Part shown: positions 3,811 through 49,583 of the stretch, one piece after another
Numbering within the stretch: position 1 is the first letter of the stretch
Layout: every line of letters begins with the position of its first letter
Source: Clostridia bacterium
Lineage (GTDB): Bacteria; Bacillota; Clostridia; UBA1381; UBA9506
Direction of reading: 5' to 3'
Length of the DNA stretch: 60,704 bases
NCBI GenBank assembly: GCA_017546245.1
Contig: JAFYXI010000073.1
Coordinates: 1 to 60,704, forward strand
Translations under genes and position numbers: made by a program
Notes under the pieces: model-generated
Databases searched by the model: none
Seen by the model: the letters and a program-made list of their open reading frames with translations, nothing else
Told to the model about the DNA's origin: nothing

Positions 3811-5136
3811 TTAATAGTTGTATTTCTTCTTTTTAATTATTATAAAAGCAATTGACAGTATTGCTGCCGCAATCTCTACCGCAACAAGCGAGAGCCAAAT
3901 ACCGTTAATTCCAAGCCATATAGGCATAAGCATTACCGCAGTAATCTGAAAAACAATAGTTCTTAAAAAAGAAATTATTGCTGAAGTTACGCCATCGTTT
4001 AACGCTGTAAAAAATGCAGAGCCAAAGATTGCAAATCCTGCGAATAAGAACGCGAACGAATAGAATTTAAAGGCTGTGAGTGCCATGGCAAACAGATTTT
4101 CATCATATCCTACAAACATTTCAGACAGAGGACGCGCCAACAACAAAGCAAGCGCAACCATTGCTACGGAAAATACTAAAATAATATTAAAACTGCGTTT
4201 TCTTAAGTTTTTAAGTTCATCGTAATTTTTTGCTCCGAAATGAAAACTTATTACAGGCGAAATGCCAACGGCATAGCCAAACGACACACCGCAGAAAATC
4301 ATTCCTACATACATCAAAACGCCATAAGATGCTACTCCGTCTTCACCGGCATATTTCAAAAGCTGCATATTATAAAGCATACTTACAACCGACATTGATA
4401 TATTACCGAGCAATTCTGACATTCCGTTTGTACAGGTTTTAGTCAGCACCTTAGCATCAAATTTTGTTTTCGTCAGTCTTAAAATACTTGAGTTAGGGCA
4501 CATAAAATATATAAGCGGAATTATTCCGCCAACAGCCTGACTTATTGCAGTAGCCGCAGCAGCACCGGCTAAACCTAATTTAAATACCCCAACCAACAAA
4601 AAGTCAAGAACCATGTTGGTTACACCTGCCGCTACTGTTACTATAAGCCCCAATTGCGGTTTTTCTGCCGTAATAAAAAAACTCTGAAACTCCATTTGAA
4701 GTAAGAATGCAATCAGTGCGATAAGTATAATACGACCATAAAGTACACAATGTTCAAGCATTACACCCTCTGCACCCAAAAAACGTGCAACCGGTCTTAT
4801 AAATGCGATTCCTAAAACAGTAAGTACTAAGCCTGTTATAATTGATGTATAAACAATCATCGAAAAACGCCTGTTTGCCTTTTCTTTGTCGCCCTCACCT
4901 AAAGTTTTACCGGCAAGCGCACTGCCGCCTGCACCGAACATAAAACCTACTGCTCCTAAAATAATTAAAAACGGCATAATAAGATTAACCGCAGCAAAAG
5001 GAACTTTACCGGCATAGTTCGAAACAAAAAATCCGTCAACGACACCGTAAATTGATGAAAAAATCATCATAATTATAGTAGGAAACGTAAAACGCAAAAG
5101 CTTTTTATGTGTAAAATGATCTGATAAACGAATCAT
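3811..5136 (-). CDS. MATE-family multidrug/cation antiporter
   Basis: A 441-aa, twelve-helix transporter of the MATE/DinF type, which exports cationic drugs or metabolites in exchange for Na+ or H+. The N-terminal segment FPTIIMMIFSSIYGVVDGFFVSNYAG and the duplicated six-helix organisation fit the clostridial MATE group. The start is ATG 5136 (MIRLSDHF) with GGAGG 6 bp upstream. Reading on to 5280 would add a non-homologous, poorly coding stretch. It stands alone, divergent from the 32-aa membrane protein gene and convergent with PAP2. The substrate is unknown. Confidence 0.88.
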   Translation of the reverse strand: MIRLSDHFTHKKLLRFTFPTIIMMIFSSIYGVVDGFFVSNYAGKVPFAAVNLIMPFLIILGAVGFMFGAGGSALAGKTLGEGDKEKANRRFSMIVYTSIITGLVLTVLGIAFIRPVARFLGAEGVMLEHCVLYGRIILIALIAFLLQMEFQSFFITAEKPQLGLIVTVAAGVTNMVLDFLLVGVFKLGLAGAAAATAISQAVGGIIPLIYFMCPNSSILRLTKTKFDAKVLTKTCTNGMSELLGNISMSVVSMLYNMQLLKYAGEDGVASYGVLMYVGMIFCGVSFGYAVGISPVISFHFGAKNYDELKNLRKRSFNIILVFSVAMVALALLLARPLSEMFVGYDENLFAMALTAFKFYSFAFLFAGFAIFGSAFFTALNDGVTSAIISFLRTIVFQITAVMLMPIWLGINGIWLSLVAVEIAAAILSIAFIIIKKKKYNY

Positions 5137-6628: not shown

Positions 6629-9600
6629 CTAAATTTTTCCCTGATGCAAGTTAATATAGCATTGTAACATATTTTTAATAAGTTCAAGCGGATTTTTTTG
6701 CTCATCCTTTGATAATTTCATTGTAATATACGGTTTATTGCCTGCCGAAAGTAAAATTCTTCCTTTATATTCGCCTATTAATGCCGAAGCTTTTTCAAAA
6801 TCTATATCAGATTTATAATAAAGCGTCATTTTTCCATCGCGGTATGTTACCTCGCTAAAGCGTGCCTCTTTTGCCATTGCTTTGACGTATGCCGCATCCA
6901 CGAGCGCAACAACCGATGCAGGAGGTTCGCCGAAACGGTCAATCATTTCGTCTAAGACCTCCATATAATCCTTATTATCTTCAACTGATGCAATCTTTTT
7001 GTACATATCAAGACGCATACTGTGATTTTTAATATATTTAGGCGGAATATATGCCTCAACATTAACATCGACAACGGCTGACCATACCTCTTCCTGCGGT
7101 TTTCCTGCAAGCTCGTCTACACTTTCAGATAACAGACGGCAATACATATCGTAACCAACGCTGTCCATATGTCCGTGCTGCTGGTCGCCCAGGATATTTC
7201 CTGCGCCTCGGATTTCCAAATCACGCATTGCAATTTTAAATCCCGAGCCGAACTCAGTAAACTCGCGTATTGCCTGAAGTCTTTTTACTGCAACCTCATT
7301 CAGCACCTTCATCGGCTTATAGGTTAAATATGCAAACGCACGGCGGTTAGAACGGCCGACTCTGCCCTTTAGCTGATAAAGCTGCGACAAGCCCATTCTG
7401 TCTGAATCTTCTATAATAATGGTGTTTACATTAGGAATATCAAGACCGGTTTCGATGATAGTTGTACACACCAAAACGTCAATCTCGCCCTCTAACATAT
7501 CCATCATAATGTCCTCCAGCTCATCTTCGTCCATCTGTCCGTGCGCAAATCTTACACGGGCATCAGGTATTGCTTCTGATATTCTTCGTGCCGCTGCCTG
7601 AATAGAATCTACTCTGTTATGAAGATAATACACCTGTCCTCCTCTAGACAGTTCGCGACGGATTGCATCTAAAAGGATTCCCATATTGTGCTCCATTACA
7701 AAGGTCTGAACGGGATATCTTTCTTCGGGGGGTTGTGTCAGCACGCTCATATCACGGATGTTTACCATAGACATATGAAGAGTTCTGGGAATCGGTGTTG
7801 CAGACAGCGTTAAAACATCGACATTTGTTTTTATTTCTTTTAGCCGTTCTTTGTGTTTAACTCCGAATCGTTGTTCTTCATCAACAACTAAAAGACCCAA
7901 ATCTTTAAACTCTATATCTTTTCCGAGCAAACGGTGTGTGCCAATTACTATATCTGTTTCGCCGCTTTTAAGCCTTGCAATTGTTTGCTTTTGCTCTTTT
8001 GCAGTACGAAAACGTGATAGCATTTCAATTTTTATCGGATAGTCCTTCATTCTCTGAACAAAGGTGTTATAGTGCTGCATTGTAAGCACAGTTGTCGGCG
8101 CAAGATATGCAACCTGCTTTGAATCCTGAACCGCCTTAAATGCCGCGCGAAGTGCAACCTCTGTTTTGCCGTATCCTACATCTCCGCACAAAAGTCGGTC
8201 CATAGGATGCTCACTTTCCATATCACTTTTCACTTCGTTTATACTGCGGAGCTGGTCTTCGGTTTCTTCATAAGGAAATTTTGCCTCAAACTCTCCCTGC
8301 CATGCTGTATCCTTACCGAACGCAAAACCGACCGCCTGCTGTCTGGCGCTGTAAAGACGCAAAAGCTCTTCTGCGAGTTCTTTGGTAGACTCCTTAACCC
8401 TTGCCTTTTGGCGTGCAAACTCCGCTCCGCCCATTTTATTTAATCGGACATGCCCCTCTTTGCCGATATATTTTTGCAAAAGCTCCAGCTGGTCAGTCGG
8501 AACATACAAAAAATCGTTACCGTTATATTTAATTTTAAGATAATCCTTGCGGCAGCCGTCAACCTCTAAGGTATCAAGCCCCACATATTCACCTATACCG
8601 TGAGTCTGATGAACAACGTAATCGCCAATGTCTAAATCTGTAAAGTTACGGATTTTGCTTGCAGAATCAGGCTTTTTCTTGCGCAGACGTTTTTTTGTCT
8701 GCCTTCCGAAAACCTCTTCATCACTTATAACCGCAAGCTTTAATTGCGGATAATAAAAACCCTTTCTGAGCGCACCCGATGCAATATAAACATTGCCGGG
8801 TGTAAGTTCTTTTGTATTTTCATCGCAGATTATTGCGTTAAATTCGTGTTCAGAAAGCTTTTCTTTTAAGTCAGAAAGCTTAGAATCATTACCTGCCAGA
8901 ACCAAAACACAAAAATTTTTTCCGAGCCAGTCAGATAAGTCCGAATAGAAAAATTCCATTTTGCCCGAAAATGAATTTGTTGCACCCACTGTTAAGCTTA
9001 CGTTTGCCTTTGGTCTGTACTCTTTGCAGGAATGCGGCAACGCATAAAGCCCCACCAGACTATGCTCTAGCAGTTCTTTTAAGGTTTCTGAAAAATTGTG
9101 TATATACTGTTCTTTTGACTCTGTTATAACCTCTTTTTCTAAAAGAGCTTTAACAGTTTCGTTAACATCCCACAAAAGGCCGTCGGCACGTTCGCTTATT
9201 CTGTGCGGTTCATCCATAAACACTAAAGATTTGCGACTGATATACTGAAGTATTGACGGATATCCGTCAGATGCCCTATATTCTTCATCTACCGCACTTA
9301 AGGTAACAGAATCAACCTGTTCTATCGAAATCTGTGACATTGGGTCAAACTCTCTTATTGAGTCAACCTCGTCACCAAAAAATTCTATTCTGTACGGATT
9401 TTCTGCCTGAGGGGTGAATACATCAAGTATTCCTCCTCGTATACTGAACTGACCGCAGCCTTCAACAATTTCTTCACGCGAAAAGCCCATATCGACTAAC
9501 TGTTTTGCCAGTTCTTCTATTTTATGCTCCTGCCCTGCCGCTATGGTCATAATGCTCGAAACGTATGAATCATAGTCTATGGTGAACTGCAAAAGCGCAT

Positions 9601-47985: not shown

Positions 47986-49058
47986 TTTAAGCTTTTCTAT
48001 ATGTATATTAAGCAATTTTTGCTTAGGAAAAACAATGTCTTTTCGAATATCGTTTTCTTTATCTTTTCTTGACCTTTTCTTGAGGTCTTTGCCGGATTCA
48101 TTTTCTGCAAAGACTTCAAGTTTCGGTTTTAAATCCGAAGTGTTAATTTCATGAAGATACTTAAGCACACTTTCGGCTAACGCCCTTACAATAAAAACAT
48201 TAGGTGCTGATGCTATTCTTCTGTACATTTTAAATCTGTTACTACATTCATTAAAGTTGTAATAACCATAACCCTTCAGCCTAGCATATTCATTATGGGT
48301 AACTCGTCTTAAACCATAATCATCAGCATAATAAGTTCCTCCAAACATATTATAACCTACGGTTTCAGACTTCACAAATTTTCGTTTCTTAACTGTATAA
48401 TATTTGTGTTTTTCCGGTTCTTCCCCAAAATCAAGCGCAGGATTGTGTTTTCTGTACCATTCATCAATTTCATAATAATTTTCTGTATACACGTCTTTGT
48501 AATATGAAAAATATACAGGCTGCGGAAATTCAAAAGTATCAAAAGGTATACCTGAGGCTATACCTATTATGTACAGTTGATTACCGTTTACCGGAAATCC
48601 GGAATAATCAGTCTCTCTAAACACAGAGTATGTTACATAATATCTTCTCTGTAAAGCCATACTCAACAAAAACATTGATTCATCGTTATTTCTTACAAAC
48701 TGTAATGGAGCACGAACTAAAAACATTTTTGGCATCCTGTTTAATATAATATTAGAAATATGTTCATTTCTTCTGTTAAGTTCAGCAGAAGTTCTTATAT
48801 TGACTGTAGAAGTCAAATCAGCAGTAATAATATCAGCATAAGGTAATCCTGTGCCGTCTAAATCAGTATATTCTCCTCTAATAAATTATTATTTCTAACT
48901 AAACTTTTATATATATCAGCGTTTTGAGAATCACCTTCTATTGCACAGACAACATCAAACTCTGCCTGTTCAAACGCCAAAGAAAATCCACCTATACCAC
49001 CAGTCAAATCAAGTACTTTATATCTGTCAATGCTCATAAGATGCCGCCTCACCAACAA
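47947..49058 (-). pseudogene. DNA (cytosine-5) methyltransferase, frameshifted and degenerate
   Basis: The N-terminal part (48858–49058) has the SAM-binding motif VLDLTGGIGGFSLAFEQ and the acidic IEGD. It ends at a stop just past a frameshift near 48855–48865. The next frame continues LDGTGLPYADIITADLTSTV and, in the long ORF 47947–48816, VTYSVFRETDYSGFPVNGNQ and HNEYARLKGYGYYNF with SAPNVFIVRALAESVLKYL, matching motifs VIII–X of C5 methyltransferases. The PCQ catalytic loop expected after DII is missing (DIITADLTS), so the enzyme is dead even apart from the frameshift. It is a relic of a restriction or defence locus. Confidence 0.8.
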
Positions 49059-49096
49059 AATTTGTATAATTACGTCGAATAATTACAAATTTATTT

Positions 49097-49120
49097 TAGA
49101 ATCAGTGTACATTTTAGATG
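49097..49120. repeat. Left flanking repeat of the hairpin array
   Basis: A 24-bp sequence, TAGAATCAG-TGT-ACATTTTAGATG. It recurs at 49422–49445 with CGA in place of TGT (two substitutions). A stem AGTGT/ACACT (49104–49125) closes over the shared loop ACATTTTAGATG. Confidence 0.8.
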
Positions 49121-49214
49121 ACACTATTTTATAGTTTCAAACCTAAATTCTTCTATCTTTTGATTTATCAAGCATTATGCTTTCTGCCATATCTTAACTT
49201 CCCATAATTCTTTT

Positions 49215-49421
49215 TAGCTAAATTTTGAACTAAAGTTCAAAGCTAAATTATTCCGCTTCGCTTCATAGCTAAATTGTTTCTTACGAAACAGCTAAATTAA
49301 ATTCGCCTTTTAGCTGACCGCAAGGTCAATTTAGCTACGAAGTAATTTAGCGTGCTTTAGCACATTTAGCTCGCCGTCAGGCGAATTTAGCTGAATAGAT
49401 TTAACTTTGTTAAATCTATTC
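49215..49421. repeat. Array of variable hairpins separated by AGCTAAATT / AATTTAGCT
   Basis: AGCTAAATT recurs at 49216, 49241, 49267 and 49290, then its reverse complement AATTTAGCT at 49328, 49344 (last base changed), 49363 (first base changed) and 49384. Most of the 7–29-nt spacers are self-complementary and all differ: TTGAAC/GTTCAA, GTTTC/GAAAC, GACC/GGTC, GTGC/GCAC, CGCC/GGCG and finally GAATAGATTTAAC/GTTAAATCTATTC. The whole block can fold as one large branched stem. The 500-bp gap between the methyltransferase relic and the aldolase gene holds this element and no ORF that I can support. Confidence 0.85.
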
Positions 49422-49445
49422 TAGAATCAGCGAACATTTTAGATG
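49422..49445. repeat. Right flanking repeat of the hairpin array
   Basis: Second copy of the 24-bp repeat (TAGAATCAG-CGA-ACATTTTAGATG). Its stem is ATCAGCG/CGCTGAT around the same loop; relative to the left copy one base pair changed from T-A to C-G on both sides. Confidence 0.8.
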
Positions 49446-49524
49446 CCGCTGATTTTAAATGAATAATCAATTGAGAAAACTGATGCAACTGGTTTCAGGA
49501 AAATTATATCATTATCAATAGTAA

Positions 49525-49563
49525 AAGGCAATCTTTTTTTGCATTTCAAAAAAAGATTGCCTT
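49525..49563 (-). terminator. Terminator of the kinase–aldolase operon
   Basis: AAGGCAATCTTTTTTTG and its exact complement CAAAAAAAGATTGCCTT surround a 5-nt loop, 20 bp after the aldolase stop. Confidence 0.85.
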
Positions 49564-49583
49564 CTAATTTAGTATAAACAACA

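Follow-up and report, generated by a model that had tools for sequence, protein, structure and literature searches.

The window, as we call the whole analysed stretch of 60,704 nucleotides, contains an array of short constant words and small hairpins between the terminator of an aldolase gene and a broken C5-cytosine DNA methylase gene. This array is the 5' part of a 325-bp element with its sense on the minus strand (Table 1), so that the limits 49215-49421, within which a first-pass annotation had confined it, were too narrow for the element as a whole. The element sits behind an older relic and in the promoter region of the methylase gene, and only in this respect is the 'defence-relic zone', to which the array had been assigned, of relevance. 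The same annotation saw no ORF here, which is correct for intact genes but overlooks a 12-codon gene relic of the S23/IVP family on the minus strand; this call is backed by position, as the relic occupies the same place as the intact genes of the relatives. The element has no inverted ends, and a TANAAT box stands on both sides of it, the 5' copy apparently being the element's own. A second copy of the array lies on another contig of the same genome. An Rfam search of the window gave no match on the array and no rRNA; GP20-b RNA (RF03003; 36714-36771, minus strand) alone was matched.

Table 1. Features of the array-bearing element and its surroundings in the window.
Feature	Position	Strand	Remarks
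Aldolase-gene terminator hairpin	49522-49566
-35-like TTGCCT	49526-49531	-	exactly 17 nt before TATAAT; overlaps the 3' arm of the aldolase-gene terminator hairpin
Older 85-nt relic element	49424-49508	-	from TATAAT (49503-49508) to ...GGCATCTAAAATGTTCGCTGATTC
Array-bearing element, 325 bp	49099-49423	-	both ends as in relatives
5' end box TAGAAT	49418-49423	-
5' terminal hairpin	49393-49421	-	13-bp stem
Separator/hairpin array	49216-49392	-	on the plus strand four AGCTAAATT, four AATTTAGCT, seven hairpin spacers, centre AAATTCGCC
S23/IVP gene relic	49155-49190	-	first 12 codons; 91.7% over 12 aa, E 0.48 alone
Second (cargo) gene relic	49124-49153	-	3' end of the gene, as in L240/L241
Element 3' end GTGTCATCTAAAATGTACACTGATTC	49099-49124	-
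Host-side TAAAAT box	49093-49098	-	directly past the 3' end
C5-cytosine DNA methylase fragment	48858-49058	-	N-terminal; PF00145, E 7.1e-8, profile positions 1-42 of 324; downstream of the element

Read on the plus strand, the array begins with four exact copies of AGCTAAATT (at 49216, 49241, 49267 and 49290), and of the reversed units two are exact copies of AATTTAGCT (49328 and 49384), the other two, AATTTAGCG (49344) and CATTTAGCT (49364), having one mismatch each. The four plus four units annotated at first are thus exact in the first half and in part of the second, and the separator is not strictly 'invariant', as it had been called, with one mismatch in two of eight units; the midway flip of its orientation and the possible pairing between the two halves of the array were seen correctly. 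The exact 9-mer occurs seven times in the window, compared with 2.05 expected. Uninterrupted stems of 6, 5, 4, 4, 4 and 13 bp in six of the eight spacers, terminal hairpin included, agree with the six clear stems of 4–13 bp claimed before, and in the remaining two spacers 2 bp form, next to GAA-type loops or tandem G-A mismatches. Spacers and terminal hairpin sum up to 40 stem bp (20,000 spacer shuffles average 3.3 and never exceed 15) and are therefore far more self-complementary than shuffled sequence; likewise, a 371-nt segment folds far better than its shuffles (z = -9.1 as RNA and -10.9 as DNA). The loops of the window hairpins h1 and h6 are not GNNA. Constant separators with self-complementary inserts are hence a real design, copies of which exist in many other genomes as well as on the other contig of this one, and no matching named element was found, in line with the annotation. 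Its description of the spacers as unrelated does not hold: other copies have the array positions in an identical order, their stems being different yet complementary.

A scan of genome contigs for three separator words in a row returned at least 119 stretches. Those among the matches listed come mostly from Oscillospirales-type Clostridia of animal guts, and a minority of them (in Puniceispirillum, Methanosarcina, Capnocytophaga and further taxa) represent repeats of a different kind. Most of the source genomes are apparently metagenome-assembled, and contigs of such genomes break at repeats. Within the host family, paired separator words were found in 8/20 genomes, with no control matches. 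The common ordered layout (given for the plus strand of the window) comprises three hairpins between forward words, the centre AAATTCGCC and four hairpins between reversed words, and a single array position can be filled by differing complementary stems (CGCC/GGCG, CGCG/CGCG, TGCC/GGCA and CGGC/GCCG) in different copies. A stem of at least 3 bp from the spacer ends is possible in 196 of 267 distinct spacers between two AATTTAGCT words (shuffles: mean 6.4, maximum 13), and loops of 3 or 4 nt (n = 187, stem of at least 2 bp) are GNA in 64, GNNA in 49, of other kinds in 74 and TNC or TNNC in no case, these counts leaving out L001-L014 as duplicates and L054, L062, L063, L064, L079, L081, L087, L123, L125 and L152 as other repeats, L152 without being read. 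As GNA and GNNA are present and TNC and TNNC are absent, the hairpins are polarised with the separator. A C-G pair closes 48/49 GNNA and 51/64 GNA loops, and cGNAg and cGNNAg are unusually stable DNA loops; one hairpin position has tandem G-A pairs (GCGAGC...GCGAGC) in place of the usual loop. Counted from the 267-spacer analysis, 17 of 42 GNNA loops are GNRA and 9 of 42 are GRNA, so that there is no RNA-type loop preference and GNRA-type RNA tetraloops are not favoured. Some arrays (L060, L076, L127, L134 and L148) are enlarged by tandem copies of one hairpin-separator unit. A palindromic repeat, TGTAGGG...CCCTACA, lies in or near the array centre at L015 (4606-4672), L114 and L143, as if it targeted arrays.

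At seven loci (L020, L061, L066, L103, L117, L150 and L159), a gene of about 119 codons follows immediately 3' of the array and is read in its direction; the product of this gene matches PF05635 (23S_rRNA_IVP; E 2e-28) and TIGR02436 (four helix bundle protein; E 1.6e-33). A linked gene, for which a recombinase or reverse transcriptase had been suggested, does therefore exist, but it encodes neither of the two. Full-length copies consist of the array, one IVP gene and often one small extra gene, the IVP gene being the only one constant among the full-length copies inspected, and the neighbourhoods of the array copies read by eye showed no transposase gene. The second gene, between the IVP gene and the 3' end, varies by copy (for example, L243, L247, L259, L265) and can be regarded as cargo. 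The copy L240, of 985 bp, contains the array, the IVP gene and a 118-aa gene without Pfam family, and this second gene ends in codons that match the relic which the window has immediately ahead of the 3' end. By this comparison, the window copy is an internal deletion of an L240-like element, one of the elements of about 1 kb found across Clostridia. The genome of the window has four IVP genes, none of which belongs to the AGCTAAATT clade, so that nothing in this assembly would move the window copy now. More widely, IVP genes were found in 16/20 genomes examined of the family, 27/77 of the order and 69/243 of the class.

The predicted IVP fold (pLDDT 95.7) matches 2RLD (S23 family), 2GSC (Xcc0516) and Avd (4DWL and 8UB7), with TM values of 0.79/0.87 and a Foldseek E of 0.046 for 4DWL and a TM value of 0.78 for chain B of 8UB7; a sequence search with the IVP protein found 2RLD and 2GSC alone and gave no hit to 4DWL. 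To our knowledge, the S23/IVP family, for which crystal structures exist, has had database entries for decades without an assigned function; nor do we know of a catalytic site or motif in this fold. PF05635 and Avd are stated to be related in a passage of PMC10053308, and the 23S rRNA IVP is named beside CRISPR adaptation modules in a figure legend of PMC10910872. Some IVP genes have no array (L169, L171, L178, L180, L181, L189, L191, L200, L208); upstream of these, an inverted repeat of A-rich units is found, and its loop includes a duplicate of the adjoining terminator's 3' arm, which at every site agrees with the terminator found there.

Arrays of other IVP clades have the same layout with a different separator. 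The words are AGCTAAATT in type S1, AGTGATATT in S2, GTGAAATA in S3, ATGAAATA in S4, ATGAATTG in S5, GATGAAATC in S6, GCGATATA in S7 and TCGATATG in S8, and further types exist. An inverted-separator score of at least 7 was obtained upstream of 28/67 IVP genes (some of them duplicates), and a score above 6 in 0/213 control stretches. In a tree of 68 IVP proteins, which left out proteins with less than 42% identity to the queries, less than 95 aa or less than 200 nt upstream as well as repeats, the 12 labels require 12 changes (minimum 11), compared with a mean of 39.2 for shuffled labels and 0/200 shuffles as low: the separator type tracks the IVP protein tree almost perfectly. All array-bearing genes fall within one 46-row group of the tree, the support of which (91/84) is not strong, and in the rows of this group labelled 'none' (L246, L261, L268) the words of the nearest type are visible on reading. 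The families f26, f40 and f47 have proteins of the AGCTAAATT clade that are 95-100% identical to the queries, and on account of these near-identical genes the AGCTAAATT element seems to spread between hosts. The four identical IVP genes of G258 were rejected as a proof of recent movement, for they share a repeated flank of about 4 kb, presumed to be rRNA operons. The same genome holds an 856-bp IVP-bearing segment of another type in two places (L256 and L257), 97.8% identical and with one end abutting different hairpins.

The ends of the element are exact. On the gene strand, the 5' end consists of TANAAT, the hairpin and then the array, and the 3' end is CATCTAAA-N14, followed by a host TANAAT. 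Among 28 5' sites, including three (L073, L102, L154) that turned out on reading not to be genuine 5' ends, 19 have TTG exactly 17 nt before TANAAT and 19 have TGn directly before it, compared with 7.0% and 10.3%, respectively, of 5,776 TANAAT in the same DNA. If sites are picked by the 5' hairpin alone, TTG stands in the -35 register in 20/26; five of the other six (window included) have GCATCT in that register, which in most of them is the 3' end of a preceding element, and L179 has neither. TANAAT lies exactly 14 nt past CATC[TC]AAA at 22/126 sites, whereas the remaining offsets between 5 and 29 account for 9 in sum. A search with the 3' motif only gave 18 sites in 9/20 genomes and no control match, and for 14 of these 18 3' ends TTG-N20-TANAAT is present 85-410 nt upstream; the enclosed DNA is an array (four separator types are represented), a short relic or a member of a hairpin family resembling a cloverleaf. 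We also considered a hairpin at the 3' terminus; its stem is not kept in all copies, and we claim the linear motif alone. The cloverleaf-like hairpin set represents a second non-autonomous family, TATAATTGACACA..., with the same 3' end (L015 at 4310-4479, L017, L277, L279, L299, L300, L308, L313), in which TTG occupies the -35 register in four of five exact 5' ends and GCATCT in the fifth.

Filled and empty alleles were found between xseA (PF02601) and the PP-loop gene (PF01171), which is the next gene after xseA in most of genus g6. In G016, TTGAAA-N17-TACAAT stands there uninterrupted by an element; between TTGAAA-N17 and TACAAT, G013 and G017 carry an ATGAATTG element and G015 a GCGATATA element, the 5' box being TATAAT in either case. 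G019 has a AGCTAAATT element on the same side of xseA, the next gene being different, and G010, G011, G012, G014 and G018 are without element and without recognisable promoter there, so that the promoter is kept in one empty allele only (L290). Together with the 5' ends 17 nt past TTG, these alleles point to entry just before the -10 box; judging from sequence, the element enters sigma-A promoters between the 17-nt spacer and the -10 box, carrying its own TANAAT. The boxes at both ends are alike, masking any duplication of a few bases. The second copy in the genome of the window gave no clean empty allele, its neighbours lying on two G002 contigs, one of which has a different next gene, and no orthologue of the window flanks was found in the three other genomes of the genus.

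The choice of target is not uniform, as arrays also lie behind tRNA genes or terminators; this applies to AGCTAAATT copies (L022, L026, L067, L092, L147) and to part of the S3, S4, S6, S11 and S12 elements. A same-strand tRNA within 450 nt upstream of the IVP gene was found in 2/3 S3, 1/1 S4, 1/3 S6, 1/2 S11, 1/1 S12 and 0/1 S10 cases and in 9/25 of those labelled 'none', and in no case of S1 (0/15), S2 (0/8), S5 (0/4), S7 (0/2) and S8 (0/3). Some 3' ends at these sites read CATCTAAA..TTCGGCTCTTCC-A before the terminator. The tRNA-type 3' end (TTCGGCTCTTCC-A; L178, L180, L185, L188, L189) resembles the 3' end of a tRNA, and the promoter-type 3' end likewise preserves the promoter spacing (GCATCT-N17-TANAAT). 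At L092 (array 7467-7703), the terminator 3' arm CAAGTCGTTTTTTT flanks the array on both sides, like a 14-bp target duplication.

We consider it likely that the array forms the 5' end of a non-autonomous mobile element, and that the S23/IVP protein, encoded by the sole constant gene of its relatives, is the mover. The linkage of array and gene, the clade-specific words and the constancy of the gene in full-length copies all point to this protein, which, probably as a pentamer, would bind the array when single-stranded or extruded, reading the separator word of its clade together with the G-N-A- or G-N-N-A-capped hairpins. It would then pair the 5' array end with the conserved 3' end (CATCTAAA-N14) and insert the element into a sigma-A promoter at the junction of spacer and -10 box, where the DNA melts in transcription initiation and may thereby become accessible to the element. 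After insertion, the host -35 would drive the element, with the element's 5' TANAAT as -10, and the host -10 would remain past the 3' end. Gene-less copies with both ends, the window copy included, would be movable in trans. The substrate is probably DNA rather than RNA.

An alternative mover could be a transposase or a site-specific recombinase which the cell provides from another locus, with the IVP protein as regulator or passenger and the array as an att-like structured joint. The TANAAT core common to both sides and the exact ends do look like a recombination core, the IVP protein has no known catalytic motif, and the cargo genes vary by copy. This mover appears unlikely to us, since the separator type follows the IVP protein tree, the IVP gene is the one constant gene of the full-length copies looked at, and those inspected by eye have no transposase gene at their side.

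Improbable, too, is a retroelement, in which the array would be a structured RNA bound by the IVP protein in the manner of Avd and copied into new sites by a reverse transcriptase acting in trans. The superposition of the IVP model on Avd argues for it, as does the homing of diversity-generating retroelements (DGR), which according to PMC3240598 requires in the DNA a hairpin of variable stem whose loop is GRNA; furthermore, several types have the array downstream of a promoter, within the transcribed leader. However, RVT_1 was found in 0/10 genomes of g6, a genus holding S1, S5, S7 and S8 elements, which makes a route through RNA and reverse transcriptase less likely (4/20 genomes of the family have RVT_1 matches, the genome of the window two, on other contigs). 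The shares of GNRA and GRNA among the GNNA loops likewise speak against it, and so does a promoter-like TTGAAA..TATAAT, seen by eye between array and gene in S2, S3, S4 and S6.

The same promoter-like sequence past the array argues against a pure leader, that is, against the array as an RNA partner of the IVP gene, in autoregulation or in the manner of a type III toxin-antitoxin system, of which the array-only copies would be decayed remnants. The array does lie 5' of the gene, codirectional with it and often with a promoter upstream, but eight array-only copies have a second end 17-19 nt past the array, array-only copies are located in unrelated promoters, and the units are non-identical and flip their orientation midway; near-identical tandem RNA repeats before a toxin gene are not what is seen here, and we regard this regulatory role as very improbable. 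A CRISPR-like or integron-like array was rejected because the spacers are self-complementary, the positions fixed and the orientation flipped, and ordinary REP/BIME or terminator palindromes because of the linked gene, the words and the promoter register.

Among known systems, REP/BIME sequences with their RAYT (TnpA_REP) proteins, the 'REPtrons', may serve as the nearest working analogy: as described in PMC8266576, they likewise combine a short constant word with palindromes, are intergenic and probably non-autonomous, and have a dedicated protein recognising word and palindrome. They differ in that RAYT is a Y1 HUH transposase and the word is GTAG, whereas the elements described here have a four-helix-bundle protein, separators of 8-9 nt and a fixed ordered array; the gene adjoining the arrays at the array loci is PF05635/TIGR02436 and not a Y1 (HUH) RAYT, and the separators are AATTTAGCT and 11 other words in place of a conserved GTAG-type tetranucleotide 5' of the palindrome. 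The intervening sequences (IVS) of 23S rRNA in Coxiella and Leptospira are stem-loop-associated insertions with the same protein family, PF05635/TIGR02436. PMC4990558 describes that IVS substitute for small tetraloops of rRNA helices and proposes a mobile origin, the mobility of ORF-bearing IVS having been suggested earlier (Ralph and McClelland 1993, as cited there). An S23/IVP frame is present in the full-length relatives and, as a 12-codon relic, in the window; but IVS lie in 23S rRNA helices and have complementary ends, while the elements described here are found within promoters or past tRNAs, and of their two ends one is formed by the separator/hairpin array and the other by a conserved linear sequence. 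DGR share with them the fold of Avd (PMC10053308) and the need for a DNA hairpin whose stem sequence is free and whose loop is constrained (PMC3240598), and the authors of the latter paper considered a contact of Avd with the hairpin. The likeness to Avd is one of fold only, no reverse transcriptase, template or variable repeat was seen here, and the loops are GNA/GNNA and not GRNA, the hairpins being part of the element and not of the target. Like MITEs, the short copies are deletion derivatives retaining both ends of a gene-bearing element, as the window copy does without a gene if compared with L240/L241; they appear to differ from MITEs in having no terminal inverted repeats and no known transposase. 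In the open-licence literature, the matches listed describe neither these arrays nor an IVP-linked mobile element nor elements aimed at the -10 box.

A wider reading can be put forward tentatively: Clostridia may have a large and so far unrecognised class of transposable elements, moved by S23/IVP proteins alone. Each clade of the protein would read its own separator word in single-stranded DNA hairpin arrays with GNA/GNNA caps and would insert the element into DNA opened by transcription, directly ahead of the -10 box of active sigma-A promoters in some clades and between the 3' end of a tRNA and its terminator in others, and the rRNA inserts and Avd may be offshoots of this hairpin-reading machinery. 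The S23/IVP family gains a mobile partner as well as a separator word which is predictable from the protein. If the proposed role of the protein is true, these elements would constitute a kind of mobile element without known transposase and a selfish element aimed at the promoter -10 box, they would explain many orphan palindromes in gut Clostridia, and the reading of hairpins by four-helix bundles would be a common root of rRNA inserts and of the Avd of DGR.
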